A program made the position numbers and the translations under genes. Below are positions 28,888 to 45,178 of a stretch of DNA of 45,690 nt, one piece after another. This DNA comes from Deltaproteobacteria bacterium (GTDB taxonomy: Bacteria; Desulfobacterota; Dissulfuribacteria; Dissulfuribacterales; QOAL01), in NCBI GenBank assembly GCA_015489315.1, contig WFZZ01000012.1:1-45690 (forward strand), written 5' to 3'. Position 1 is the first letter of the stretch. Every line of letters begins with the position of its first letter. The notes under the pieces are model-generated. The model was not told the origin of the DNA. It did no database searches and worked only from the letters and a program-made list of their open reading frames with translations.

Positions 28888-29949
28888 TTATTTACCAAAC
28901 GGACAAATTGGATAGTGACATTTTTTGCAATTTAAACACAAACCACCATGGCCAAGCTCAGCAATCTCTCGCCTTCCAATCATATCTCCTGCCAAAACCC
29001 TTGGAAGTATAAGGTCTAAAACAGTGGTCTTAAAATACATGCCACATGCAGGAATTCCCAATACTGGTACCTTACCAATATAACTTACTAGAAACATTGC
29101 TCCTGGCAATACTGGACTTCCATAGACAAGTGAATGGGCTCCTGCCTCTTTTATTCCCTTTCTGGTAACATCATCTGGATCCACTGACATCCCACCTGTA
29201 CATAAAATGATCTCAGCACCCGAATCTATAGCATCCTTTATTGCTCCTGAAATCTCAAAGATGTCATCTGGAACTTTTTTAAAACTAGTAACCTCCACAC
29301 CAAAGGCTTCAAGCTTCTTCTTCATAACAGGGCCAAAGGCATCTTTGATCCTTCCTTCAAAGACCTCCCTACCTGTTACAACTATAGCTCCCTTTTTTAT
29401 TTTATAATCAATGACTTTTAAAAGCCCCCTAGCCCCTTTTAGAATTACCTTGGCCCTATCCATGATTTCTTTAGAAATCACGAGTGGAATTGCACGCCCC
29501 GCAGCCACAAGTTCTCCCTTTTTTACAGGAAAATTGTCATGCCTTGTGGAAAGCATAACGTCTCCTAAAAGATTAAGTTCTAAAAGGGCCTCTTTATCTA
29601 CTTTGAAAATTCCATTAAATGAAGCATAAAAGGACACCTTGCCCTCTGATATCTTTAAGTCTGTATAGACCCCTGACCCACAGGCATATCGTCCAAGAAT
29701 AAGAGCAGCATCGTTTTCGTGAACATGTTCAGGACCTAACTCAAGACAATAGATATGAAATTTTCCAAGATCCTTTAATCTTGAAACGTCCTCCTTTTTT
29801 ATTATGTGCCCTTTCTTAAAGGCTGGCCCCTTTTTCTTTCCAGGTACTATTTCAGTGATATCATGGGGTAGGACCATCCCTACCGCTTCTTCCACAGGAA
29901 CAAGCCTTTTTATAAATAAGACATCATGATCATCAGGAGATAGGCTCAT
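28888..29949 (-). CDS. Molybdopterin-binding (MoCF/MoeA-like) protein with C-terminal Cys cluster
   Basis: Residues ~1-160 resemble the extender part of MoeA-like proteins ('PVEEAVGMVLPHDITEI' near the start). The second half has the MoCF-type domain: VTGREVFEGRIKD, 'GAEIILCTGGMSVDPDDVTRKGI' and 'VPVLGIPACGMYFKTTVLDLILPRVLAG'. The C-terminus ends in C-x2-C-x2-C-x4-C (GLCLNCKKCHYPICPFGK), probably binding Zn or an Fe-S cluster. I start it at ATG 29949, because AAGGGGG precedes it by 5 bases and it overlaps the fmdE stop by 17; the longer frame to 30030 would overlap fmdE by about 100 bases. It may act in molybdopterin insertion with the FmdE-like neighbour. Confidence 0.8.
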   Translation of the reverse strand: MSLSPDDHDVLFIKRLVPVEEAVGMVLPHDITEIVPGKKKGPAFKKGHIIKKEDVSRLKDLGKFHIYCLELGPEHVHENDAALILGRYACGSGVYTDLKISEGKVSFYASFNGIFKVDKEALLELNLLGDVMLSTRHDNFPVKKGELVAAGRAIPLVISKEIMDRAKVILKGARGLLKVIDYKIKKGAIVVTGREVFEGRIKDAFGPVMKKKLEAFGVEVTSFKKVPDDIFEISGAIKDAIDSGAEIILCTGGMSVDPDDVTRKGIKEAGAHSLVYGSPVLPGAMFLVSYIGKVPVLGIPACGMYFKTTVLDLILPRVLAGDMIGRREIAELGHGGLCLNCKKCHYPICPFGK

Positions 29950-30523
29950 AATAACCCCCTTGGGCACAAGGCCTACAAAGTATCTTTCCGTCCTTTTCAA
30001 CATCCCTAAAATCTTGAACCCACTCACCACATATCGAACATTGGACCCTTCTTCCAGGACGCCCTGGCAAATCGGCTTTATTGACTTTCACATGTACATC
30101 TTGGATCTCAAAAAGTTCTGAATCAGGCATGACCTTGTAGGCCTCAAGCTGTCTTTTGTATTTATTTTCTATCTCAGGGAAATATCTTTTAGATAGCTCT
30201 CTTGCCTCTTCCTTTGCAACTATTCGCTTGGCCTTTCCTGTCTCAAGATCCAGAAAAGTTACTGCCATCTTTCCATAATCTACCCACCTTAAGGACCTCT
30301 TCCCAAGGCTACAACCGGTAACTGATTGAATTGCATCAGTTGCACACCGATCTATTTCCACAAATACTATGAGCCGTTTTCTATCCTTTCCCTTTGGATC
30401 TTCAATACCAAGCTCTTTTAGACCAAGCATGGCAAGACGCACTCCAAGGACCTGCCCAGGGCAAAGGTGCCCATGAAGTCTTACTGATTCTTCCAATAAT
30501 TGCTCAAATGTTTTATTACTCAT
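29933..30523 (-). CDS. FmdE-family protein with zinc-ribbon C-terminus
   Basis: The 196-residue protein has the FmdE core: HGHLCPGQVLGVRLAMLG (residues ~17-34) and 'EIDRCATDAIQSVTGCSLGKRSL', which form a Cys/His metal site in known members. A C-terminal zinc ribbon follows (CSICGEW...CRPC). FmdE was named for a gene near tungsten/molybdenum formylmethanofuran dehydrogenase of archaea, but bacterial copies occur beside molybdopterin genes, as here; their exact role is unknown. AAGGA precedes ATG 30523. It is divergent from the next methyltransferase gene. Confidence 0.85.
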   Translation of the reverse strand: MSNKTFEQLLEESVRLHGHLCPGQVLGVRLAMLGLKELGIEDPKGKDRKRLIVFVEIDRCATDAIQSVTGCSLGKRSLRWVDYGKMAVTFLDLETGKAKRIVAKEEARELSKRYFPEIENKYKRQLEAYKVMPDSELFEIQDVHVKVNKADLPGRPGRRVQCSICGEWVQDFRDVEKDGKILCRPCAQGGYYEPIS

Positions 30524-30549: not shown

Positions 30550-31419
30550 GTGAAAGATATCAACCCCAGTTCTCCAGAGTTTTGGGAATCCCTGGCCATA
30601 CCAGAAAAAAAAGACCAAATTAACAAAAGATGTCTTGAGGCTAAAACTTGGGACAAAGCTGCTGCCACTTATGATGACCTTGAAAAGTGCAAAGATTATC
30701 AAAATCAAATAAATTCGATATTAAACATCTTGCAACAAAAAGGCGCTTTAGACAAGAAAAATATTGTGATGGATGTAGCCTGTGGCACTGGAACCTATGC
30801 AATAAGATTTGCACCCTTTTGTAAATCAGTCACATGTCTGGACATATCAACGGGCATGTTGAAAAAGTTAGAGGAAAAGAAGAAACATTATAGCCTGTCA
30901 AACATTGAAATTGTACGGAAAAGCTGGGAAGACTTTAAGAGGGATATTTCCTTTGATTTGGTCTTTTGTTCCATGACTCCACTTTTAAGGGACATAAAAA
31001 ATCTAAAAAAGATTCTTAACTATTCAAAAAGATTTATAGGCATAGTGACCTGGGCCGGAATAAGAAAAAATCGGCTTTTAAGCCTAATTTCAAGGGAGAT
31101 TTTGGGAGAGGAGATACACCAAAAGGGTCAAGACATTACTATTATTTTTAATTACCTTTATAGCCTTGGATATGCACCACATCTCACCTTTTTTACAGGA
31201 TGTTGGGAAAGAACAAAACCCATAAAAGATCAGATTGAAAGGATGATCTGGCGCCTTGAACTAAAAAGGCCTTTGAAAAGAAATGAAAAGGATGAAGTGA
31301 AAAGGATTTTGGAAAAATTTGCAGATAAAAATGGGCTTGTCAAAAGCGTTACCACAGTCCGCACTGCCTTTATGTTCATTGATAAAAAAGAGGCAAAGGG
31401 GGCCTTCTCATGTGATTAA
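30550..31419 (+). CDS. Class I SAM-dependent methyltransferase
   Basis: A 289-residue methyltransferase with SAM motif I VMDVACGTGTYAIRFA, 'VTCLDISTGMLKKLEE' (motif II region) and 'SFDLVFCSMTP' (motif IV). The substrate is unknown. The start is GTG 30550, five bases after AGAGGTG; the frame is open further upstream, but that part is antisense to fmdE and is not gene. It is divergent from fmdE and its end overlaps the end of the next gene by 4 bases. Confidence 0.85.
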   Translation: MKDINPSSPEFWESLAIPEKKDQINKRCLEAKTWDKAAATYDDLEKCKDYQNQINSILNILQQKGALDKKNIVMDVACGTGTYAIRFAPFCKSVTCLDISTGMLKKLEEKKKHYSLSNIEIVRKSWEDFKRDISFDLVFCSMTPLLRDIKNLKKILNYSKRFIGIVTWAGIRKNRLLSLISREILGEEIHQKGQDITIIFNYLYSLGYAPHLTFFTGCWERTKPIKDQIERMIWRLELKRPLKRNEKDEVKRILEKFADKNGLVKSVTTVRTAFMFIDKKEAKGAFSCD

Positions 31420-33998
31420 TTTTGGTTGGAAAACACACTTATTAGGATAGAACTCAATTCTTCCAGCTTGTATGGCTTTGGAAGGGCTGCACAAAAGCCA
31501 AACTCTTGAAAATTTTTTATGACTTCATCCTTTGAGTAGCCTGTAGAAACTATAACCTTGGCATTTGGATCTTCTTTTAAAATGAACTTAACCGCTTCTT
31601 TTCCACCCATTCCGCCAGGAACAGTTATATCCATAATCACAGCATCAAAGGGTTTACCTTTTTCCCTTGCATCCTTGTATTTTTTAAGGGCCTCTTTTCC
31701 ATCCTTGGCAACATCTGCTTCATAACCTAAATAGATCAGACTTTCCCTTAAAAGCTCTCTGATATTTTCCTCATCATCCATTACAAGCACCCTTTTGCCC
31801 TTGGTAGAACTAGATATCTTTGCCTCCTTTGTTTCAGTTTTTTCAATATCTTCTCCTAGGGCCGGCAGATAAATGGTAAACTTTGTACCATAATTCTTTT
31901 TCGATTCGACATCGATAAAACCGCCATGTTTTCTTACAATTGAGAAACAAACGGCAAGACCAAGACCTGAGCCCATCTTTTTAGTTGTGAAAAAAGGATC
32001 AAAAATCCTTGGAAGGTCTTCAGGCGAAATCCCTGAGCCTTTATCTTCGATGGTTATCACAACATAATTTCCTTCTGGCAGAAATTGGTGAACTCCTTGT
32101 TCAAGTGGGAGGTTATATGCCTTTATTGTAATAATCCCCCCGTCAGGCATAGCCTGGTCAGCATTTATGACCATATTTTGGATAACCTGGCTTATCTGTC
32201 CAGGGTCAACTTTTACTGACCAAAGATCTTTTGCAAAATCAAACTTGCAAGCTACATTTGAGCCCTTTAGCGAAAATTCAGCAGTCTCAAGAATTATCTT
32301 TTTAAGTGAAATTACCTTCTTTATTGGTGCACCACCCTTTGCAAAGGTAAGAAGCTGCTGGGTTAGGGCTTGGGCCCTATATGCAGCCTTTTCGGCCGCA
32401 TCCAGTCGTTTAAAAAGATCAAGATCATCCTGTGCCTTAAGTTTTGAAAGAGAGATATTACCCAAGATGGCAGTCAATAAGTTATTGAAATCATGAGCAA
32501 TACCACCTGCAAGAACTCCCAGAGATTTAAGCTTTTCCACCTTTGAAAGTTCAAGGGTGGCAAGTTTCTGATCCGTTACATCCAAATTACTACCTCTTAC
32601 ACCTAGGAAGTTTCCATCTCCATCATAAACCTTTGAGCAACTGTGACTCACCCATCTTACTTCACCATCCTTTCTGACAATTCTAAACTCCATATTTTCA
32701 TGGGGTTCATGAGTTCTCTGGATTTTCATATTATCGAGGTGTTTTTTGAATAACTCTTTGTCATCAGGGTGAACAATATCCAACAAAAGGGCTGGTTTTT
32801 TCTTGAATTCTTCTTGGGTATATCCAGTTATTTCGTAACAACGATGTGAGTTATATTTAAACTGTCCATTTTCATCTATCCAATATGCCCAGTCGGTGGC
32901 ATATTCAATTACTGTTCTTAATATCTCTTCCTTCTTGAGCAAATCTTCCTGGCCTTTGTATATGGCGTTTAACATTCTATCTATGCTTGTACTGATATTT
33001 CGCATCTCAAGGGAATCACTTAATTCCTTTATGTTAAGAAGACTCGATTTTTGTAATCCATTAAGATCTAGGGATGAGAGCACCTCTGAAAGACGATCAA
33101 TGGGCCTTGTAATGAGTTTATCAAATATTTTATCTGCCAGGAAAAGAGTAAAGACAAAAATCGCAAATATCACTCCCAAGACTGGCCAAAGGTTTTTCCA
33201 GATATAGATGAGGGCATTTTTCCACGGAGTAATTGCATAAAACTCCCAGCCCTTGGGAACATCTAGAAGGCGTCTAAAACACCAATATCTATCACCAGCC
33301 ATCTTTAGCATATACAGTCCATACTGGTCAGGACCATTAATAGATTCAAAGGTGCTTCTTAAATTTTCGCGCCTCTCTACAAGCTCCTTTTGGGGATGAT
33401 AGACAACAGTTCCGTGATTAGAAAGGATAAACACCATAGAGCCCTTAATTGACGGACTTGTCACCTTTGAAAGTAAATGTCTTAAGGGCTCAAGGTCTCT
33501 TTCAAAAATAAGGCTATAACCTCCTGGAACTTCATATAGAAATGTAACAACAGGTGATTTTACGAAAATTGATTGATGAACCCTTGATATCCTTTTGTGC
33601 CTTTTAATATATTCAAATCCAGAAAGATCGAGGTCTAGATAGTCTCTAAATCTCTTGTCTCCAACCAGGATTATTCTGTTCTCTTTTGATAAGAGTGCGT
33701 ATTTTTTGTTGCTTGTTATCTTTGGCAGTTGCTTTTTTAGATATTCCTTGAGCACCTCTAATTCTCCAGCTGGTGCAACTTTTAACAAGTATTTAATTAA
33801 AAGGTCGTCGCGATATAGATAATTTTCTATAAGATTTGTGCATGAATTGAAAAGACGCTCCATCTCTAAGCTTGTTTGTCTTTTTAGAATATGGATGGCA
33901 AAATAGGACGTTACTAAAAATAAAATTGCCAGAGATGCAATTCCAAGTAGCCAAATAATAAGTTTTATTTTTTTTATAATGGAAGGAGGTTGCGACAT
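31416..33998 (-). CDS. Hybrid sensor histidine kinase with periplasmic sensor, PAS and receiver domains
   Basis: An 860-residue protein. A transmembrane helix (~13-33) leads to a large periplasmic sensor (~34-270, Cache-like), a second helix (~273-295) and a HAMP-like linker. After these come a PAS domain with PAC (~365-485: 'WAYWIDENGQFKYNSHRCYEITGY'), HisKA with H502 in GGIAHDFNN, HATPase (NMVINADQAMPDGG, DKGSGIS, GSGLGLAVCF) and a receiver with D790 in AVIMDITVPGGMGG. It is 6 bases after a lipoprotein-type solute-binding gene, so it probably senses that ligand together with the periplasmic domain. No response regulator gene is adjacent. Confidence 0.92.
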   Translation of the reverse strand: MSQPPSIIKKIKLIIWLLGIASLAILFLVTSYFAIHILKRQTSLEMERLFNSCTNLIENYLYRDDLLIKYLLKVAPAGELEVLKEYLKKQLPKITSNKKYALLSKENRIILVGDKRFRDYLDLDLSGFEYIKRHKRISRVHQSIFVKSPVVTFLYEVPGGYSLIFERDLEPLRHLLSKVTSPSIKGSMVFILSNHGTVVYHPQKELVERRENLRSTFESINGPDQYGLYMLKMAGDRYWCFRRLLDVPKGWEFYAITPWKNALIYIWKNLWPVLGVIFAIFVFTLFLADKIFDKLITRPIDRLSEVLSSLDLNGLQKSSLLNIKELSDSLEMRNISTSIDRMLNAIYKGQEDLLKKEEILRTVIEYATDWAYWIDENGQFKYNSHRCYEITGYTQEEFKKKPALLLDIVHPDDKELFKKHLDNMKIQRTHEPHENMEFRIVRKDGEVRWVSHSCSKVYDGDGNFLGVRGSNLDVTDQKLATLELSKVEKLKSLGVLAGGIAHDFNNLLTAILGNISLSKLKAQDDLDLFKRLDAAEKAAYRAQALTQQLLTFAKGGAPIKKVISLKKIILETAEFSLKGSNVACKFDFAKDLWSVKVDPGQISQVIQNMVINADQAMPDGGIITIKAYNLPLEQGVHQFLPEGNYVVITIEDKGSGISPEDLPRIFDPFFTTKKMGSGLGLAVCFSIVRKHGGFIDVESKKNYGTKFTIYLPALGEDIEKTETKEAKISSSTKGKRVLVMDDEENIRELLRESLIYLGYEADVAKDGKEALKKYKDAREKGKPFDAVIMDITVPGGMGGKEAVKFILKEDPNAKVIVSTGYSKDEVIKNFQEFGFCAALPKPYKLEELSSILISVFSNQN

Positions 33999-34004
33999 AA
34001 GATT

Positions 34005-35135
34005 TTAAAAAATCCTTCTGACTAGTACAAACTTTCTATTTTGTGCCTTTATTAGGTAAATTGGCCTTATGACATCTCCAAATCTATTAAACTTTACCTC
34101 TCCTAACAAAAAATTAAATCGTTGCCTTAAAAGTTCTTTTTTTAGGCAATAGACATCTGTGGGATCGGAGCAAGATTTCATTACTTGAGAAATTATCTTA
34201 ACAGCCTCAAAGGCCCTAGCAGATTTGGGTGTGGGTTCCCTTCCGAATTTAGCCCTTAAACTTCTTGAAAAAGCCTCAAAAAGCTTATCCTTATAAAAAG
34301 GCTTTAGAAACGTTACAATCTCTAGACCATCTACAGCTCTACTTCCATATTCAAAAAGTCTAGGACCTTGGGACCAAAGCGTTGCAAAAAAACGGCCATT
34401 GTAACCCTTTTGCCTCAACTTTTGGGCAAAAATCCCTGTGGCCTTTACCTCTGTTAAAAAAACAACTGCTTGTGGACCATAGGCCAATACCTCTTCGACC
34501 TTTTGAGTATAATCAACACCTTCTTTGGTATTTATCTGAACCTCAAAATATTTACCCTTGAAATTTCTTTTGATCTCCTTTTCAAGGTCTTTACAAAAAC
34601 TAGAATTTGACATGTCCATAATAAAAAGAAGGCTCTTCAGTCCATCTTCCTCAAAAAGTTTTCCAAAGGCCTTTCCATACAATACGTTATCAACTGATGT
34701 CCTGAAAAAAAGATCATCTTTTTTTGACAGCTTTGTGGTGGCTGTATAAGCAGTAAAAAGTATTCGTTTTTTTTCCATAACCAATGGGTAGGCAATTAGG
34801 GTATTTTGTGAATAGGTATGTCCTATGATAACAGGGCACCCCTTGGAAATTAACCTTTCATCAGCCTCAAGTATCCCTTCCTTAGTGTTCTTATCATCTT
34901 CTACCAAAAGCTCTAAAGGCCTTCCATTTATTCCACCTGCCTCATTGATTTCATTTACCCCAAGCCTTGCTCCAGCCTCTATATCTTCAGCAGGAGTTCC
35001 GCTGTAACCGCTTAAATTGATTGACAGACCTAATGGGATTGGAGATCTATGGCCACATCCAATAAATGAGGATAAAATTAAAAAAGCTCCTATAAAAAAG
35101 AGCCATATGGTGGATCTTAACAATTTCTTGTGCAT
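34005..35135 (-). CDS. Branched-chain amino-acid-type solute-binding lipoprotein (Peripla_BP_6)
   Basis: A 376-residue protein with a lipoprotein signal (lipobox SFIGC, acylated Cys at residue 27). The type I periplasmic-binding fold follows: 'GLSINLSGYSGTPAEDIEAGARLGVNEINEAGGINGRPLELLVEDD' spans residues ~35-81, the family hallmark; then YTATTKLS and 'FLTEVKATG'. Its ligand is unknown; relatives bind amino acids, amides or urea. There are no permease or ATPase genes nearby, and a hybrid kinase follows after 6 bases, so it is probably a tethered sensor. AGGAG lies 6-7 bases before ATG 35135. Confidence 0.85.
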   Translation of the reverse strand: MHKKLLRSTIWLFFIGAFLILSSFIGCGHRSPIPLGLSINLSGYSGTPAEDIEAGARLGVNEINEAGGINGRPLELLVEDDKNTKEGILEADERLISKGCPVIIGHTYSQNTLIAYPLVMEKKRILFTAYTATTKLSKKDDLFFRTSVDNVLYGKAFGKLFEEDGLKSLLFIMDMSNSSFCKDLEKEIKRNFKGKYFEVQINTKEGVDYTQKVEEVLAYGPQAVVFLTEVKATGIFAQKLRQKGYNGRFFATLWSQGPRLFEYGSRAVDGLEIVTFLKPFYKDKLFEAFSRSLRAKFGREPTPKSARAFEAVKIISQVMKSCSDPTDVYCLKKELLRQRFNFLLGEVKFNRFGDVIRPIYLIKAQNRKFVLVRRIF

Positions 35136-36437: not shown

Positions 36438-36890
36438 ATGTTTCGTGGCAAATCGACCCATAATCTTGACGCCAAGGGTCGATTAAGCATTCCTGCCCGT
36501 TTTAAAGATGTCTTAAAGACTAGATATGATAACAAGCTCATTGTTACCAATCTTCCTACTTATTTGGCTGCATATCCTATTGAAGAATGGAAACAGATTG
36601 AAGAACAATTTGCAAAGTTTAGATTTGGCCCCCCTAAAGTCTTGGCCTTTAAAAGGTATCTTTTGGGAGCAGCAGTCGAGTGCTCTCTTGATGGACAAGG
36701 CAGGATTCTGATTCCTGCTGATTTGAGGCAAGAAGCTCAAATAAAAAAAGAGGTCGTCTTGGTGGGTATGCATAACTATTTTGAAATCTGGAGTAAGGAC
36801 CTATTAGATCAAGAAACAAACGATACAAGGGAAAACTTCGATGCCATTAGCAATGATATTATCAAAGAATACGGCATTGGACTCTACTAA
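36438..36890 (+). CDS. mraZ: Transcriptional regulator MraZ
   Basis: A 150-residue protein with two SpoVT/AbrB-like swapped-hairpin repeats: 'FRGKSTHNLDAKGRLSIPARFKD' at the start and 'AVECSLDGQGRILIPADLR' near residues 78-96. MraZ forms a ring that binds the G-rich boxes just upstream and controls the dcw cluster. It is the first gene of the cluster and its end overlaps rsmH by 50 bases. Confidence 0.95.
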   Translation: MFRGKSTHNLDAKGRLSIPARFKDVLKTRYDNKLIVTNLPTYLAAYPIEEWKQIEEQFAKFRFGPPKVLAFKRYLLGAAVECSLDGQGRILIPADLRQEAQIKKEVVLVGMHNYFEIWSKDLLDQETNDTRENFDAISNDIIKEYGIGLY

Positions 36891-37776
36891 CCCCAAGGAG
36901 ATTCACCTACCTGTCCTTTTAAATGAGGTCTTAGAGTTTCTTAAACTTAGGGAAGGTGGTGTATATCTTGATGCAACCCTTGGACTTGGTGGGCACAGTG
37001 AAGCCATTATAAAAAAATGCCCGAACATTTCTCTTTTGATTGGCCTTGACTGGGATGAAGAGGCCCTAGAGCTTGCAGCCAAAAGGCTAAAACCCCTTTC
37101 CCCAAAAGCCCACCTTTACAGAACTAATTTCAAGGACATGGACCTTGTTTTGGAAGAAGAAGGACTAAAGGGTGTAGATGGAATCCTCATGGATCTTGGC
37201 CTTTCTTCTTATCAACTAGACCTTAGTGGTAGAGGCTTTAGCTTTATGAGGGATGAACCACTAGATATGAGAATGGATAGAACTGAAACAGTCCTTGCTT
37301 CAGACATGATAAACAATCTTCCAGAAGAACGTTTAGCAGAACTCATCCATATCTACGGAGAAGAACCTTGGTCAAAAAGGATTGCTAGAGCCATAGTTAA
37401 ATGTAGGACTGAAAAGCCAATCTTATCCACCCTTGAGCTGGCTAACATTATCAAAAAGGCAATTCCAAGACGTTTTCATCCTAAAAAAATACATCCAGCC
37501 ACAAGGACATTTCAGGCCATCAGGATTGCCATAAACAGGGAATTTGAAAATCTTACCACTGCCTTAAAAAAGGCAAAAAAATGCCTTAATCCAGGAGGAA
37601 GGTTATTGGTAATATCCTTTCATTCTCTTGAAGATAGAATCGTCAAACATTTCTTTCAGAATTCAGAAAATATAAACATTATTACCAAAAAGCCATTAAG
37701 GCCTAAGAAAGAAGAAATAAATAAAAACCCTAGGGCAAGAAGTGCCAAACTAAGGGTTGCAGAAAAGGCTTTTTAA
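36841..37776 (+). CDS. rsmH: 16S rRNA m4C1402 methyltransferase RsmH (MraW)
   Basis: A 311-residue methyltransferase with 'HLPVLLNEVLEFL' near the start, SAM motif DATLGLGGHSEAII, 'LIGLDWDEEAL', MDLGLSSYQLD, the RGFSFMRDEPLDMRMD block and the C-terminal SFHSLEDRIVKHFF. It N4-methylates C1402 of 16S rRNA. ATG 36841 overlaps mraZ by 50 bases; ATG 36853 or a TTG nearer the conserved HLPVL would shorten the overlap, and no ribosome site settles it. Confidence 0.93.
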   Translation: MPLAMILSKNTALDSTNPKEIHLPVLLNEVLEFLKLREGGVYLDATLGLGGHSEAIIKKCPNISLLIGLDWDEEALELAAKRLKPLSPKAHLYRTNFKDMDLVLEEEGLKGVDGILMDLGLSSYQLDLSGRGFSFMRDEPLDMRMDRTETVLASDMINNLPEERLAELIHIYGEEPWSKRIARAIVKCRTEKPILSTLELANIIKKAIPRRFHPKKIHPATRTFQAIRIAINREFENLTTALKKAKKCLNPGGRLLVISFHSLEDRIVKHFFQNSENINIITKKPLRPKKEEINKNPRARSAKLRVAEKAF

Positions 37777-37792
37777 AAAGTGGAGGTGGGCC

Positions 37793-38152
37793 ATGACCAC
37801 TAGGACAGCAACTATAAGAATGCCTCACAAAAACTCTTATACAAAGAAAGCAACACTTAAGGACAAATTTAGTATTGGAGAATTTGTGGCCTTTGATTCC
37901 TTAAAGGGAATAATCTCCATTGTACTTTTGATAACCTTTCTCTTTCTTTCGGGCTATACCACCTATGAGGTCAAGGCAGTGGCAGATGACATAAAAAAGA
38001 TAGAGACGGAATATATCAAAATAAAAGATGAAAATATGGGCCTTAAGGCCAAGTTTTCTAAGGCTACCAATGACAAGGAATTGATCCAGATTGGAAAACG
38101 TCTAGGCCTTAGACCACCAGAAAAAAAACAAATAATAACATTATCAGAATAG
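37793..38152 (+). CDS. ftsL: FtsL-like septum protein
   Basis: A 119-residue bitopic protein: a basic N-terminal cytoplasmic part, one transmembrane helix ('IISIVLLITFLFLSGYTTY', ~residues 42-60) and a periplasmic coiled coil (~62-100) ending in 'QIGKRLGLRPPEKKQI', a usual FtsL ending. FtsL with FtsB scaffolds and activates the FtsW-FtsI synthase. Sequence identity is low in this family, and the call rests on topology and position. ATG 37793 is chosen because GGAGGTGG precedes it; the frame is open further upstream into rsmH. Confidence 0.8.
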   Translation: MTTRTATIRMPHKNSYTKKATLKDKFSIGEFVAFDSLKGIISIVLLITFLFLSGYTTYEVKAVADDIKKIETEYIKIKDENMGLKAKFSKATNDKELIQIGKRLGLRPPEKKQIITLSE

Positions 38153-38154
38153 CC

Positions 38155-39729
38155 ATGAAAAAACAGTTTGTCAGGGGCGGGACTTACAACAAAGGAGATA
38201 GGGAGTATAAGAAAAGATGGCCTTACTACACACTCTTAATAGGCACTCTTTTCTTTATAGGCCTGGTCATTTCAGGCTGTTTCGGGGAGAGGGTTTCTGA
38301 TAAAAAACCCATTGCCAGTTCAGCTCTTGCCCCTGGCAGTCCTTTCTACAGAGTTGATCCTCAAAAGAGACTTCTTTCACGAAAAAGTATTGTTGACCGA
38401 ACAGGTACTATTCTTGCGATCTCAGAAAGGGATAAATATGGCAATCCCAAAAGGGTCTATCCCTACGGTGAAATGGCAAGAGAACTTTTGGGCTTTGTAG
38501 ATGGGTATGGACGTGGCCTTGAAGGGATTGAATACGTTTATGATGATCTGTTATCTCCAATTGAGCCCCAAAAAAATCAGATGCCGGTTGTCCTTTCCCT
38601 TGAAAAAAATCTCCAAGAAGAATGTCAGCTAAATCTCAACTGGCAAATAAGGCGTCTTAAGGCCAAAAAGGGAAGTATTATTTTAATGGATTTAAAAACA
38701 GGAAATATTCTTGCCATGGCAAATAAGGCATCCCAAGATGGTGAAAAGATTATTGCTATAAAGGAGACCATTAATCCTTGGCCATTAATTTACTGCCTTA
38801 GCCTTTTACAAAACATAGAGGAGCAAACACTCCAAGAACAAAGGGAAAACAAAGAAAAAAGTGTACTTAATGAAAATAAAATAAAAAGTCTCAAAACTGT
38901 AAGATGGCACTGGCATCTTTTTAAAGAGGATTCTGGAGTCTGGACGAGAGTAAAAGAAGAACATTTTGAAAACCTATCACTCACTTCAAATACCCTTTCA
39001 ACCCTTATTGCACTTGGCCTTGGTCAAAAGACCGGCATAGACCTTCCAGATGAAAATCAGGGGACATTACCAATGATTCTTTCCGATAACATGACTCAAA
39101 TCCTTGACTCACAGGCCGAGGCAACCCCATTGCAACTCCTTTTTGCCTTCTCAAGACTTGTTGCCAATAAAAATATAGAAAGACCAAGTCTTCTTCTTTC
39201 AAAAAGTGCAAATGAGAAAACAAAAGAAAGGGTAATCTTTGATGAAAATACCCACAAAAAACTTTTAGAATTAATTGGCGACACCTCCGGTCCTTCGGTC
39301 GCTTCTTTTTTGAAAAAGGGAGAAGGTTTTCAAGTAATTGGTCTTGGATTCTGGCCAAAGAAAAATCCAAAGGTAGTATATATTTCCTGTCTTTTTGACG
39401 CAAAACTTAGACCTGATAGAAGAAGAGGAACACTCGGCAGAATGGTCCATCTGGCAAGGATGGGAGCAGGTGCCATTAATAAACGATTTCAATTTGAAGA
39501 TGATGTAAGCCTTGCTCTTAAAAGACCCTTTTATAAAAAGGCAAAAATCCCAAGCTCAAACAAGATGCCTGACCTTATAGGGCTTTCAATGAGAAGTGCC
39601 ATTGAAATGATGGAGCAGATGGGTGTTACTCCAAAGATATCTGGGAAAGGAACTGTAAAGGCTCAATTCCCAAAGCCTGGCAAAAGAATTTCCAAGGAAA
39701 AGGGCTGTTTAATTATTTGTGAAAGTTGA
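38155..39729 (+). CDS. FtsI-like protein lacking transpeptidase active-site motifs
   Basis: A 524-residue PBP2/3-type protein in the ftsI position. A basic N-terminus, transmembrane segment (~24-41) and 'SIVDRTGTILAIS' (79-90) are kept. Then ~80 residues of the usual pedestal are missing before 'RVYPYGEMARELLGFVDGYGRGLEGIE' (100-126). The transpeptidase scaffold follows (SIILMDLKTGNILAMAN, TGIDLPDE, ATPLQLLFAFSRLVANK), ending in one PASTA domain (471-523). SxxK is absent: the alignment goes from ETINP to WPLIYCLSLLQ (205-219). SxN reads TSN (277-279), and KTGT is deleted between GFQV and IGLGFWP (391-401). The KTG at 292-294 is the ordinary 'GKKTGIDLP' structural motif. It cannot be a normal transpeptidase; a structural or regulatory role is inferred. 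Confidence 0.85.
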   Translation: MKKQFVRGGTYNKGDREYKKRWPYYTLLIGTLFFIGLVISGCFGERVSDKKPIASSALAPGSPFYRVDPQKRLLSRKSIVDRTGTILAISERDKYGNPKRVYPYGEMARELLGFVDGYGRGLEGIEYVYDDLLSPIEPQKNQMPVVLSLEKNLQEECQLNLNWQIRRLKAKKGSIILMDLKTGNILAMANKASQDGEKIIAIKETINPWPLIYCLSLLQNIEEQTLQEQRENKEKSVLNENKIKSLKTVRWHWHLFKEDSGVWTRVKEEHFENLSLTSNTLSTLIALGLGQKTGIDLPDENQGTLPMILSDNMTQILDSQAEATPLQLLFAFSRLVANKNIERPSLLLSKSANEKTKERVIFDENTHKKLLELIGDTSGPSVASFLKKGEGFQVIGLGFWPKKNPKVVYISCLFDAKLRPDRRRGTLGRMVHLARMGAGAINKRFQFEDDVSLALKRPFYKKAKIPSSNKMPDLIGLSMRSAIEMMEQMGVTPKISGKGTVKAQFPKPGKRISKEKGCLIICES

Positions 39730-39760: not shown

Positions 39761-42697
39761 ATGCTCATTAGAGAACTTTTTGACGAAATAATACAGGAAA
39801 TCCATTCTGTTAACTGGTCAGATGCCATTGATATATCATCCCTTTCTCTTGATTCAAAAAAGGTCAAAAAAGGGGGGCTTTTTATAGCCCTTCCTGGTAC
39901 AAGGACCCATGGATGCGATTATATAAAAGAGGCCATTAAAAATGGCGCAGCAGCCATACTTTGCCCCTTTGATTGCATGGAAAGGCTAAGCGCTGATGTA
40001 CCAAAAGAAGTACCTTTAATTTTTTCAAAAGACATCCATGAATGTGGTGGCAAGGTTGTTTCAAAATTTTTTGGAAACGTGAGCTCCAAACTTTCCATAA
40101 TAGGAATCACTGGAACCAATGGAAAGACAACCAGTGCATTTTTAATAGATTCCATTTTAAGATGTTCTGGTAAAAGGACTGCCATCTCAGGAACCATATT
40201 TCAGGAAATAGCCGGTAAAAGAGAAAAGGCCACTCTTACCACTCCGGATTTAATCTCCTTTCACTCTTTTTTAAAAAAGGCCTTTGATGCTGGGGTTACC
40301 CATGTAATTTCTGAAGTATCCTCCCACGCCCTTTCCCAGGGAAGGGTCTTTGGAGTAAATTTTAAAAGTGTATTATTCACAAATTTAAGCCATGATCATC
40401 TAGACTATCACAAGACCCTTGAAGATTATTTTCATTCAAAAAAGAAACTTTTTACAACTCTTAATCCTGAAAAATCGGTAATTAACATTGATGATCCCTT
40501 TGGGAAAAGACTTCTAAAAGAAGCTAAAGGAGAAATTATAACCTACGGCCTTAAGGAAAAGGCCGATGTATTTCCAATTAACTATTCAACTGATCTTAAT
40601 GGAATAAAGGCCAGGTTCTCTGCCTTTGGGACAAGTTTTTCAATAAAATCACATTTAATCGGTAATTTTAATATTTATAACATCCTTGGTGCCATTGGTG
40701 TTACAAAAGGTCTTGGTATATCCAATGAAGATATAGCCAAGGGAATAGAAGCATTAAAAAATGTTAAAGGGCGCTTAGAACCTTTATTTATCAAGGGAAT
40801 TTATGGATTTGTTGACTATGCCCACACCCCGGATGCCCTTAAAAATGTTCTCCTTACCCTTAAGGCAATAAGGGAAAAGCGAATCATCACCATAGTCGGC
40901 TGCGGAGGAGATCGAGACAGGTCCAAAAGGCCTGAGATGGGAAAAATTGCAGCCAAACATTCTGACCTTGCAATCATTACTTCAGATAATCCCAGAAATG
41001 AAGACCCTCGATCAATTATAAAAGAGATGTTAAAAGGGGTTTCTGCAAACCTAAAGGGAAAGACAAGGGTCATAGTAAGACGGGATAATGCAATAAGGTT
41101 TGCAAGTCAAATAGCTAAAAAAGGTGACATTATTCTTTTGGCTGGTAAAGGCCACGAAGACTACCAGATAATTGGAAACGAAAGACTTTCCTTTGACGAT
41201 AAAATCCACCTTGAGAATGCACTTTCCGAAAAAAAATTTTTTGGAAATGAAGTTCAGCCAACCATTTATCTTTTAAAAGAGGCCATAGGCGGAAAACTTA
41301 TAAATGGAAAAGATGAAATACTTGAAAGGCAATTTTTATCTGTATCAACAGATTCCAGAAATGTAGAAAAGGGGGCAGTTTTTTTTGCCCTAAGGGGTGA
41401 GCGCTTTGATGGTCATGACTTTTTGGATGAAGTGTGGGAAAAGGGGGCCATTTGTGCAGTAGTTGATAAAAAAAGGGATTTTTCTTCCCCGTCTGAACTT
41501 CCCCTCATTAAGGTCCAAGATACCCTTTTTGCGCTTGGGGATCTTGCCAGATGGTATCTTGAGTTTTTAGGTGTTAAAACCATTGGCATTACAGGAAGCT
41601 GCGGTAAAACCACCACCAAAGAACTTTTGAAGGCTGTTCTTTCAAAAAAATTTAATGTCAAAGCCACTTCTGGAAACTTTAATAATCTTATAGGCCTTCC
41701 TTTAACTGTCCTTGGACTAAGGCCTGGAGTTGAGTGGGCCATTTTGGAAATGGGAACAAATCTTCCTGGTGAAATTAAAAGGCTTTGTGAAATAGCAAGG
41801 CCAGAGGTAGGCATTATCACCTGTATAAAACCTGTCCACCTTGAAGGCCTTAAGACAGTTGAAAATATTGCCCTTGAAAAGGGCTTTTTGTTTGAATCCC
41901 TGCCAGAAGACGGAATTGCCATATTGAATGCAGACGATGAGCTTTTGATAAAAAATGCCAAAAGATTAAAGACAAAAAAGATATACACTTACGGTATTTC
42001 TGAAAAATCGGCAAAGAAGTGTATTTCCCTCTCTCACATCTATGCAAAAGAATGGACTGAAAGGAAAGAAGGCCTTGAAATCAAAGTTGTCATAGATGGC
42101 CAGGATTACAAATTTACATCTCCACTTATTGGAAGCTTTAACATTTCAAATATCCTTTCTGCAATTTCCTGTGGAATAGCCCTTAATGTTCCAGTTGACA
42201 AGATCAAAGAGGCCGTGGCGGAAACAGGTGCAATTTCAGGAAGGATGAATATAGAAAAGTTTTCTTCTGGTTGGATAATTCTGGATGACTCCTATAATGC
42301 AAATCCGGCCTCCATGAAGGCAGCATTGGAGTTTTTAAAGAAAAACTTCCCTAATGAGAAAAAAAATCTCATTCTTGGTGATATGCTCGAATTGGGAAAA
42401 GATGCGGAAAAATTCCACATTGAAATTGGTAAGGTCAGCAGCACACTTTCACCATCCATATTAATTGCAATTGGAAATCTTTCTAAAAAAATAGCCCAAG
42501 GGGCAGTGGAATCGGGCCTTACTCCAAAGAAAATAAAAACCTTTAGGACATGGCAGGACGCCCTTGAATTTTTAAAGGCTGATAACAGACTTTTTTTTAA
42601 TGGTTCCAAAAGGGTTGTGCTCTTAAAGGGTTCAAGGGGGGTCAGCCTTGACAGGCTCAAAGAATTCATCGAAAAAAGGATTGGAGAGGATTTTTAA
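39761..42697 (+). CDS. murE-murF: MurE-MurF fusion (DAP-adding plus D-Ala-D-Ala-adding ligase)
   Basis: A 978-residue protein. The MurE half (~1-490) has [10 protein letters not shown] near 114, '[13 protein letters not shown]', HDHLDYH and DNPRNEDP near 408; DNPR indicates meso-diaminopimelate specificity. The MurF half (~495-978) has '[27 protein letters not shown]', [15 protein letters not shown] near 608, '[14 protein letters not shown]' and [11 protein letters not shown]. It adds the third and then fourth-fifth peptide residues to UDP-MurNAc precursors. Single-chain MurE-MurF is known in Bordetella and other groups. It lies between the ftsI-like gene and mraY, where two genes normally lie. 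Confidence 0.93.
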
Positions 42698-43776
42698 TGC
42701 TTTTTCACCTCCTCTATCCACTCCATAACCTATTATCCTTTTTTAATGTCTTTAGATACATAACATTTAGGACCATATATGCGGCAGTAACCGCCCTTGC
42801 CATTACCCTTTTTCTGGGACCCTGGTTTATAAAAAAGATAAAGAAACTTCAGTTTGGTCAGGTTGTAAGGGATGATGGCCCCAAGAGCCACCTAAAAAAA
42901 ACAGGAACTCCAAGCATGGGAGGGATATTGATAAACTATGCTATAGCCACCTCAACCCTCCTTTGGGCAGACCTAACCAACCTCTTTATCTGGATCGCTC
43001 TAATTATACTTTTGGGTTTTTCATCAATTGGATTTGTAGATGACTGGCTAAAGATTAGGCACAAAAATCCTAAGGGACTCAAGGGCCGCTGGAAGCTCTT
43101 TATCCAGGCCACCCTTGTCGGCCTTTGCTCACTAGTTCTTGTAATAAGTGGGCATTGGGATACGCATTTAAGTGTTCCCTTTTTTAAAAATCTTCATCCT
43201 GATCTTGGACTTTTCTATATAGTTTTTGCATACCTTGTAATTGCAGGCGCTTCAAATGCAGTAAATCTAACTGATGGCCTCGACGGTCTTGCTACTGGTC
43301 CATTTGTAGTTTCTTCAGCAGTTTATACGCTTTTTTGCTACTTAGCTGGTCATTCAAAGCTTGCTCATTACCTTCAGATACCCTATGTCCCAGGGGTTGG
43401 GGAGCTTTCAATCTTTTGTGGAGCCATGGTTGGAGCCGGTCTTGGTTTCTTGTGGTATAACACCTACCCTGCTGAAATCTTTATGGGAGATGTTGGATCA
43501 CTCGCAATGGGTGGGGCATTGGGAGCTGTAGCCCTTATGTCAAAACAAGAAATTCTACTTGCAATAGTTGGCGGGATATTCGTAGCCGAGGCCCTTTCTG
43601 TAATGATGCAAGTTGGATATTTCAAAATAACAAAGGGGAAGAGAATATTTAGAATGGCCCCTTTACATCACCATTTTGAAATGATGGGCTGGCCAGAGCC
43701 AAAGGTTATAGTGAGATTTTGGATAATCTCGGTACTTCTTGGCCTTCTGGCCATAAGCACCCTGAAACTTAGATAA
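42697..43776 (+). CDS. mraY: Phospho-N-acetylmuramoyl-pentapeptide transferase
   Basis: A 359-residue integral membrane protein with about ten helices. Catalytic motifs [24 protein letters not shown], the '[15 protein letters not shown]' segment and [23 protein letters not shown] are intact. It transfers phospho-MurNAc-pentapeptide to undecaprenyl phosphate, giving lipid I. It starts on the last base of the murE-murF stop (TAATG). Confidence 0.97.
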
Positions 43777-43779
43777 CAC

Positions 43780-45177
43780 ATGGAATATTTCAGAGATAAA
43801 AAGATTTGTGTACTTGGAATGGGTGTTTCTGGAAAAGCTGCTGCAAAGTGGCTATTCGAAAAGGGGGCAAATCTTTTACTTGCTGACGACCTTCCGGTTG
43901 ACAAGTGGGATAAGGGAATTCATCCTCTTTTAAACGCAAAAAATGTATTTTTTAAATGTTCTGATGAAATAGAAAAAGAAGATATAGAAGGTCTTGACCT
44001 TATTGTAGTTAGTCCAGGAATTCCCAAAAAGCACAAGGTCCTTTCACTTTCAAAGGAATTTTCCATTCCCCACGTGGGAGATCTCTATCTGGCAGCATCC
44101 CTTTGGAAAGGCCCATTAATTGGAATAACCGGAACAAACGGAAAGACCACAACCACCCTTTTAACCCTACATCTTTTAAAAGAAGGAGGCTTAGATGCGA
44201 TCTGTGCTGGAAACATCAGCCCACCTCTTTTTGACCTAATGGACAAAAATTCTGAAAAAACAATCGCGGTACTGGAAATAAGTAGCTTCCAACTGGAATA
44301 TTTTAATAAAGACTTTGATTGGTTTGAACATCCTTTTTTTAATGTTGCCGTATGCCTCAACATTGCCACTGATCACTTGGATAGACACAAAGATCTTGGA
44401 GATTATAAAAAGGCCAAGTTGAACCTTTTTAAATTTCAAGAAAAAGCCCACACCGCAATTATTGGAAGGGGCATTAAGGAAGACGAAATAAACATCCCTT
44501 CAAAAAATGTCTTTTATCTAGAAGATATCATAAATGGAAAGGAAAAACGGACTCTGGAAATCCTTTTTAAAGGCAAAAAGATATCCCTTGACATTTCAAA
44601 ATGGGGTCTTAAGGGACGCCATAACCTTGATAACCTGACATCTTCCATAATTTCTGCCCTCACTCTTGGTGCATCTAAGAAAGCAATTTTAGAGGGCATA
44701 TCAAACTTTAAAGCGCCAAGTCACAGAATGGAATTTTTGGCAGAGATTGATGGGATAAAATTCATTGATGATTCAAAGGCCACTAATATACATGCTCTAA
44801 AAGCTGCTCTAAGAGCCATAAATTCCGGTCTTATCCTTATATTAGGAGGGCTTGGTAAAGGCGAAAACTTTGAAGATTTAGCTTATTTTTTAAAGAAAAA
44901 CGGAGTAGCAAAAAGAGTAAGAGGGGCTGTTTATATAGGAAAAGAGGGCTCAAGGATAAAAAATATTTTAAAGGGCATTATCCCAAGAGATGTTGTCATA
45001 CATGATGATAAAGGGGATATTGTGATGAAAAAGGCGGTAATAGCTGCAAGGGAGATGGCAAAAGAAGGAGACACAGTTCTTTTAAGCCCTGCATGTGCAA
45101 GTTTCGACCTTTTTTCCAGTTACAAGGAAAGAGGCGAAATTTTCAAAAGGGAAGTTTTCGCCTTAAAAAACAGCTAA
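43780..45177 (+). CDS. murD: UDP-N-acetylmuramoyl-L-alanine:D-glutamate ligase
   Basis: A 465-residue Mur ligase with CVLGMGVSGKAAAKWLFEKG (residues ~10-29), P-loop [14 protein letters not shown], 'VLEISSFQLE', ATDHLDRH and FIDDSKATNIHA. It adds D-glutamate to UDP-MurNAc-L-Ala. The next gene is murG after one base; ftsW would normally lie in between. Confidence 0.95.
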   Translation: MEYFRDKKICVLGMGVSGKAAAKWLFEKGANLLLADDLPVDKWDKGIHPLLNAKNVFFKCSDEIEKEDIEGLDLIVVSPGIPKKHKVLSLSKEFSIPHVGDLYLAASLWKGPLIGITGTNGKTTTTLLTLHLLKEGGLDAICAGNISPPLFDLMDKNSEKTIAVLEISSFQLEYFNKDFDWFEHPFFNVAVCLNIATDHLDRHKDLGDYKKAKLNLFKFQEKAHTAIIGRGIKEDEINIPSKNVFYLEDIINGKEKRTLEILFKGKKISLDISKWGLKGRHNLDNLTSSIISALTLGASKKAILEGISNFKAPSHRMEFLAEIDGIKFIDDSKATNIHALKAALRAINSGLILILGGLGKGENFEDLAYFLKKNGVAKRVRGAVYIGKEGSRIKNILKGIIPRDVVIHDDKGDIVMKKAVIAAREMAKEGDTVLLSPACASFDLFSSYKERGEIFKREVFALKNS

Positions 45178-45178
45178 A

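Follow-up and report, generated by a model that had tools for sequence, protein, structure and literature searches.

The Dissulfuribacterales, as we take this order of sulfur bacteria to be, have no catalytic FtsW-FtsI pair, and we infer that the whole order must therefore divide with other wall-building enzymes. The protein encoded at the ftsI locus, here called pseudo-FtsI, is descended vertically from FtsI, the transpeptidase of the divisome, and probably now acts as a non-catalytic divisome subunit, with the septum being made by a class A PBP and/or RodA-PBP2. Its role is inferred. The dcw cluster was read in a window of 45,690 nucleotides, meaning the whole stretch of DNA that was analysed. 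Coordinates are given in Table 1.

Table 1 Features of the dcw cluster and of pseudo-ftsI in the window.
Feature	Position	Strand	Remarks
mraZ	36438..36890	+	
rsmH (mraW)	36841..37776	+	
ftsL, FtsL/DivIC-like, 131 aa, directly upstream of pseudo-ftsI	37757..38152	+	PF04977 E=1e-4, below cut-off
pseudo-ftsI, 524-aa FtsI orthologue without transpeptidase active site	38155..39729	+	orthologues in 43/46 order genomes
N-terminal hydrophobic segment ending in lipobox-like I-S-G-C42	38224..38280	+	Cys codon 38278-38280
Pedestal anchor motif RKSIVDRTG, kept, residues 76-84	38380..38406	+	near-invariant in 24-sequence alignment
Pedestal-deletion junction, residues 93/94	38431..38436	+	hhalign against intact FtsI
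SxxK place, here P210-L-I-Y213	38782..38793	+	hhalign; PGSxxK at this place in no order member
SxN place, here W263-T-R265	38941..38949	+	aromatic order-wide, mostly WxPW / WTR
KTGT place, deletion between K388 and G389	39316..39321	+	hhalign; GKTGT/S in no order member
PASTA domain, residues 470-514	39562..39696	+	PF03793 E=5.5e-10
murE-murF, single fused ORF, 978 aa	39761..42697	+	
mraY	42697..43776	+	
murD	43780..45177	+	
Missing ftsW, slot between murD and murG	45178..45178	.	murD stop and murG start 2 nt apart
murG, truncated by contig end	45179..45688	+	

The pseudo-ftsI frame is uninterrupted over exactly the interval listed. Pfam searches with its 524-aa product returned the PF00905 transpeptidase family (E=5e-11) and the PASTA domain, and the best PDB matches were FtsI proteins (E=1e-15). 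When a profile of 24 order members was aligned with one of 23 intact FtsI proteins from the phylum (hhalign), the match had a probability of 100 and E=3e-82, and it spanned the whole periplasmic part. These scores place the homology to class B PBPs beyond chance. By descent and by locus, the window protein is FtsI.

By function, it is not a class B PBP transpeptidase, because SxxK, SxN and KTG were tested and all three were unmet. Motif losses were read from the hhalign alignment, with the FtsI of genome G052 providing the intact numbering. The SxxK motif is substituted (S293 to P210, K296 to Y213), and ~10 residues are deleted just upstream of it. At the SxN place, S347-S348-N349 became W263-T264-R265. 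From KTGT, the T-G-T and the following loop are deleted. The pedestal is short by ~65 residues, and no acceptable PBP_dimer domain was detected by Pfam (PF03717 E=0.58 over 19 residues). Two apparent remnants were rejected: the remaining KTG triplets (KTGN, KTGI) do not represent the motif of the active site, and an SSN sits just ahead of the PASTA domain, not at the SxN site.

An earlier note, made from the letters of the window and a list of its reading frames, had described a class B PBP aligning along its whole length but without its transpeptidase active site. Both claims held, as did the loss of KTGT by deletion. Its deletion of SxxK failed, the motif being substituted beside a deletion, and so did its reading of SxN with Thr for Ser, the serine having been replaced by tryptophan. 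The pedestal loss, put at ~80 residues, is real but smaller. According to the same note, an intact SxxK/SxN/KTGT set found by structure-based alignment would refute it; the structure predicted for the window protein together with a 97% relative had low confidence (pLDDT 30), and no fold search rests on it.

Among 60 related genomes searched, the protein turned up in the relatives at order level. The inactive FtsI was detected by an order-profile search in 43 of the 46 genomes of the order, covering ~11 families. In the other three (G027, G033 and G037), the profile matched PBP2 only. The dcw contig of G027 begins inside murE, so that the pseudo-ftsI region is unassembled; G033 (83% complete) and G037 (66% complete) yielded no MurE-MurF locus, and the 5' part of the cluster was unseen. 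SxxK and KTGT are missing in every aligned order member, and none has GKTGT/S, or PGSxxK at the right place. Four outgroups at the phylum level (G048, G051, G052 and G057) keep EPGSTFK-type and GKTGT motifs. PGSRIK in G016 and PGSRLK in G018 were rejected as SxxK candidates, both being within the PASTA domain.

At the SxN place, 22/24 order proteins carry an aromatic residue, mostly in [WF]xPW or WTR. We read this conserved aromatic motif as a new constraint in the dead site. The stretches IVDRTG, YPYG, GFWP and RRGTLG are conserved in the order, and the invariant residues of the 24-sequence alignment are mainly glycines and prolines, with a few charged or structural ones. PASTA is mostly kept, being absent from several order members. 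Pairwise dN/dS values of pseudo-ftsI (NG86, without significance test) ranged from 0.17 (G003/G004) to 0.40 (G039/G040), with 0.25 for G000/G005, 0.22 for G012/G017, 0.22 for G013/G009, 0.25 for G019/G029 and 0.32 for G039/G044. By these pairwise values, pseudo-FtsI is under purifying selection. Genome G023 is, by strong inference, what we take to be the cultured Dissulfurimicrobium hydrothermale Sh68T, whose complete chromosome has been published (PMC8780430). Order-wide conservation, selection, the aromatic motif and this complete cultured genome support the first interpretation of the gene as a retained pseudo-enzyme and not a decayed one. The same deletions and purifying selection, proposed at that stage as a check in related genomes, were both found within the order; motifs kept in relatives would have indicated decay, and the order relatives lack them too.

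FtsW is absent from the window's genome as well, which the earlier note, silent on FtsW, had missed; the sole SEDS protein belongs to the RodA clade. In relatives with an intact FtsW/FtsI pair, ftsW occupies the slot between murD and murG. Relatives with long contigs have the gene order rsmH-ftsL-pseudoftsI-murEF-mraY-murD-murG-murC-murB-ftsQ-ftsA-ftsZ. Exactly one SEDS match was obtained for 45/46 order genomes, and none was found in the remaining genome. Fifteen of the order's SEDS proteins were analysed in a tree that also contained dcw FtsW and mrd-type RodA sequences from other families, and all 15 grouped in the RodA half. The SEDS gene follows PBP2 in the mreBCD region, both in the window's genome and in the other genomes read. 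An Rfam search of one dcw locus gave no match. The MurE-MurF fusion (978 aa) also occurs in most of the order (not in families f4 and f5) and in family f25. Elsewhere in the window, reading by eye revealed a PAS/histidine kinase/receiver hybrid (31416-35135, -), which adjoins a lipoprotein resembling periplasmic substrate-binding proteins and probably forms a sensor pair with it, and neighbouring FmdE-like and MoeA-like genes (28888-30523, -), probably molybdenum-enzyme related.

To place the order in its phylum, dcw clusters were read in ~75 genomes from ~60 families. A missing ftsW together with an FtsI without motifs was found in the order (families f1-f11) and in f25, f28, f35, f39, f63 and f71. 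All other families scorable for both traits have ftsW and an intact FtsI; 38 FtsI proteins were intact by motif, and that of G049, lying off its contig, was unscored. FtsI measures 248-318 aa in f35 and f63, and 320-333 aa in f39, which we take to be the Thermodesulfobacteriaceae. The loss of ftsW and the inactivation of FtsI coincide wherever both were scored, in at least four lineages including the Thermodesulfobacteriaceae, a recurrence in other families that the earlier note had missed. Genome G143 (1,634,377 bp), which we take by inference to be Thermodesulfobacterium geofontis OPF15, with a published genome (PMC3624685), has neither ftsW nor an intact FtsI.

Mapped on a tree built from eight dcw proteins, the absence of ftsW together with a dead FtsI requires four or more changes. 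The AU test rejected one ancestral loss for the whole phylum, with a single clade lacking ftsW (p=0.013); it did not reject one loss shared by f71, f25 and the order (p=0.53). Four independent pairs of rows were concordant, with a sign test p=0.125 that cannot reach significance at n=4. Both the tree and the pair test used one label for the two traits, since these coincided in every row scored for both.

Genome G046 has one SEDS protein with an intact FtsI, while G085 and G120 of the same family have two, and an assembly gap is the likely reason. Only one SEDS match was obtained for each of G063, G064, G067 and G112, although ftsW is in their dcw cluster, and their FtsI is intact where fully read; the pseudo-enzyme therefore cannot be predicted just from a low number of SEDS matches. 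In G159 (f25, 99% complete) no SEDS and no PBP2-type match was found, there are several PF00905 matches, and the dcw state is as in the order. Either its assembly has a gap, or G159 grows and divides with class A PBPs only. In f35 and f63, a ~262-aa, apparently multi-membrane-spanning protein occupies precisely the position of ftsW, between murD and murG (L163:4085-4879, L164:4107-4892 and L165:3692-4483, all -). It had no Pfam match in the only locus searched, L163, and could be a degenerate FtsW.

The PF00905 inventory of the window's genome comprises PBP2, pseudo-FtsI, one class A PBP, in which the glycosyltransferase domain is present, and a stand-alone transpeptidase of 399 aa. The earlier note had proposed searching the genome for a second, intact FtsI; none was found by the PF00905 search, and the inventories reject a hidden one. 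Five order genomes (G022, G027, G030, G034 and G036) gave only two PF00905 matches apiece; those identified always include a PBP2-type and mostly also a class A-type protein. In these genomes, septal cross-linking must therefore fall to PBP2, the class A PBP or both, unless an enzyme outside the PF00905 family does it. This supports the original suggestion that another enzyme does the cross-linking, with only PBP2, the class A PBP and the small stand-alone transpeptidase remaining. A class A PBP was found in nearly all order genomes, FtsZ in 35/35 good genomes, DivIC-type (FtsB-like) matches in 20/20 genomes tested and MreB in the same proportion, 12/12 order genomes among them. Besides pseudo-FtsI, the set that is kept consists of FtsL, FtsQ, FtsA, FtsZ, the FtsB-like protein, MreB, PBP2-RodA and the class A PBP.

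The 399-aa transpeptidase (L003:1252-2451, on G000:C207) has SASLFK, SINP and GKTGT motifs and no dimerisation domain, and a MlaD/PqiB-like gene adjoins it. Proteins of similar size and match are widespread, not universal, in the order. As a universal FtsI replacement it was rejected, since in the genomes with two PF00905 matches PBP2 and the class A PBP already take up both. Many order genomes also have a second MreB-like gene (G000:C234:4564-5535 and equivalents; PF06723 E ~1e-90 to 1e-107), separate from the mreB near PBP2-RodA.

The membrane anchor of pseudo-FtsI is unusual in two families, f1 and f2, where the first hydrophobic segment ends in Gly-Cys in 27/29 proteins, mostly in a lipobox-like pattern. 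This was overlooked at first reading. The pattern was seen in 0/38 intact FtsI proteins and in none from the other families. The PS51257 rule demands a lipobox Cys at 15-35 and a charged n-region; most members of genera g4, g6 and g22 meet it strictly with a possible start, and the window protein fails its length limit (Cys at 42, usual limit 35). The f1/f2 pseudo-FtsI is likely a lipoprotein, as judged from sequence alone, lipidation being untested. In the FtsWIQBL structure, the transmembrane helix of FtsI docks on FtsW, and FtsL touches both the pedestal and the transpeptidase domain of FtsI (PMC7614612). FtsW loss would therefore free the FtsI helix and leave the FtsL contacts.

We propose that the septal synthase role passed to other enzymes, after which FtsW would have been lost and FtsI kept for binding alone. 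Pseudo-FtsI would sit with FtsL, FtsQ and FtsB at the Z-ring and recruit or regulate a septal peptidoglycan synthase. In f1/f2, the lipoprotein form would dispense with the transmembrane helix through which FtsI docks on FtsW. The scaffold role, already suggested in the earlier note, remains an inference, with no localisation, partner or essentiality data. The sequence does not single out the septum maker, since the order keeps the class A PBP as well as RodA-PBP2. By analogy, and with modest confidence, we favour the class A PBP, whose septal role is untested. The RodA-PBP2 pair is the weaker candidate, and both acting together is the least likely of the three. The state of G159 leans toward the class A PBP unless it reflects an assembly gap.

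The main competitor to the class A PBP is a RodA-PBP2 pair serving both elongation and septation, with pseudo-FtsI as an adaptor letting FtsQLB switch RodA-PBP2 on at the septum. It is the sole SEDS-class B pair left in the order, MreB is retained in all order genomes tested, and Chlamydia reportedly uses MreB and Pbp2 for division. Against double duty stand the class A PBP present in nearly all order genomes, the SEDS-free and PBP2-free G159 with the same dcw state (again barring an assembly gap), and Clostridioides difficile, in which RodA-PBP2 does not take over septation (PMC10693644). We consider this reading plausible but clearly less likely than not. A remodelled site with a new catalytic or ligand-binding activity, for example binding of uncross-linked stem peptides via PASTA and a WxPW pocket, would fit the conserved WxPW/WTR at the SxN place and the mostly kept PASTA domain. 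However, there is no conserved nucleophile or other catalytic set, and we regard this as unlikely.

Slow decay, in which the gene would persist only through tight operon packing and its product be functionless, gains some support from the far shorter and more degenerate FtsI of f35, f63 and f39 (248-333 aa) and from PASTA loss in several order members. It is improbable given the open frame across 43/46 genomes and ~11 families, the dN/dS of 0.17-0.40, the new aromatic motif at the SxN site and the conserved IVDRTG, YPYG, GFWP and RRGTLG stretches. An assembly or sequencing artefact that removed the motifs and ftsW could be suspected, as the window comes from a fragmented assembly of 266 contigs. 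This is all but excluded and already refuted: independent assemblies agree (G005 at 97%), G023 has the same dcw cluster on a single contig of 2,025,450 bp, and G143 also lacks ftsW and an intact FtsI.

Pseudo-FtsI resembles FtsI (PBP3) in its dcw position between ftsL and murE, its domain order, its IVDRTG / YPYG / LGFGQxTGIDLPGE / PASTA stretches and the profile match (E=3e-82). It differs in having no SxxK/SxN/KTG, a pedestal shorter by ~65 residues, no FtsW partner and, in f1/f2, a lipobox-like Cys. C. difficile divides with the class A PBP1 (PMC10693644), and its class B PBP3 takes part in division with dispensable catalysis (PMC12539705). That divisome is similar to the one described here in having no canonical FtsW/FtsI pair and in keeping FtsL, FtsQ, RodA-PBP2 and a class A PBP; an FtsZ-retaining divisome without functional FtsW/FtsI is likewise seen in the order. 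However, the dcw SEDS and class B genes of C. difficile are SpoVE and SpoVD, with sporulation roles, whereas in the order, which belongs to a different phylum, ftsW was deleted and it is the class B protein of the dcw cluster whose active site is gone. Bacillus subtilis divides with a catalytically dead PBP2B S309A when PBP3 is present (PMC5656894). There too, a non-catalytic FtsI-type protein is combined with another transpeptidase supplying activity, but the case is a laboratory mutant with FtsW present. A survey reports ftsW loss from the dcw cluster in Thermodesulfobacteria (PMC8871954); in the bearing passage, FtsI is not mentioned, and the Dissulfuribacterales and the other families found here are not named. 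We found no report of FtsI active-site loss in these lineages in the literature searched.

A bolder, less likely reading is possible for f1/f2, namely that the former FtsI is a lipoprotein, perhaps held in the outer membrane, that acts from the periplasm to activate the septal class A PBP. LpoA and LpoB are lipoprotein activators of class A PBPs. The possible analogy, in that a lipoprotein would serve a class A PBP in both cases, rests on an inferred localisation and activity of pseudo-FtsI, which is not known to be related to LpoA/LpoB in sequence. If true, FtsI would have given rise to an equivalent of the Lpo activators, working in a divisome that has neither FtsW nor a catalytic FtsI.

Septal wall synthesis has been said to depend universally on FtsW-FtsI, C. 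difficile being a reported departure (PMC10693644). Several lineages of another phylum, including cultured thermophiles, are now seen to lack FtsW and to have an FtsI minus its catalytic centre. Here, natural evolution has uncoupled binding by FtsI from its catalysis. Cultured organisms are available in which to ask who builds the septum, what FtsQLB targets after FtsW loss, and which FtsI surfaces are conserved.
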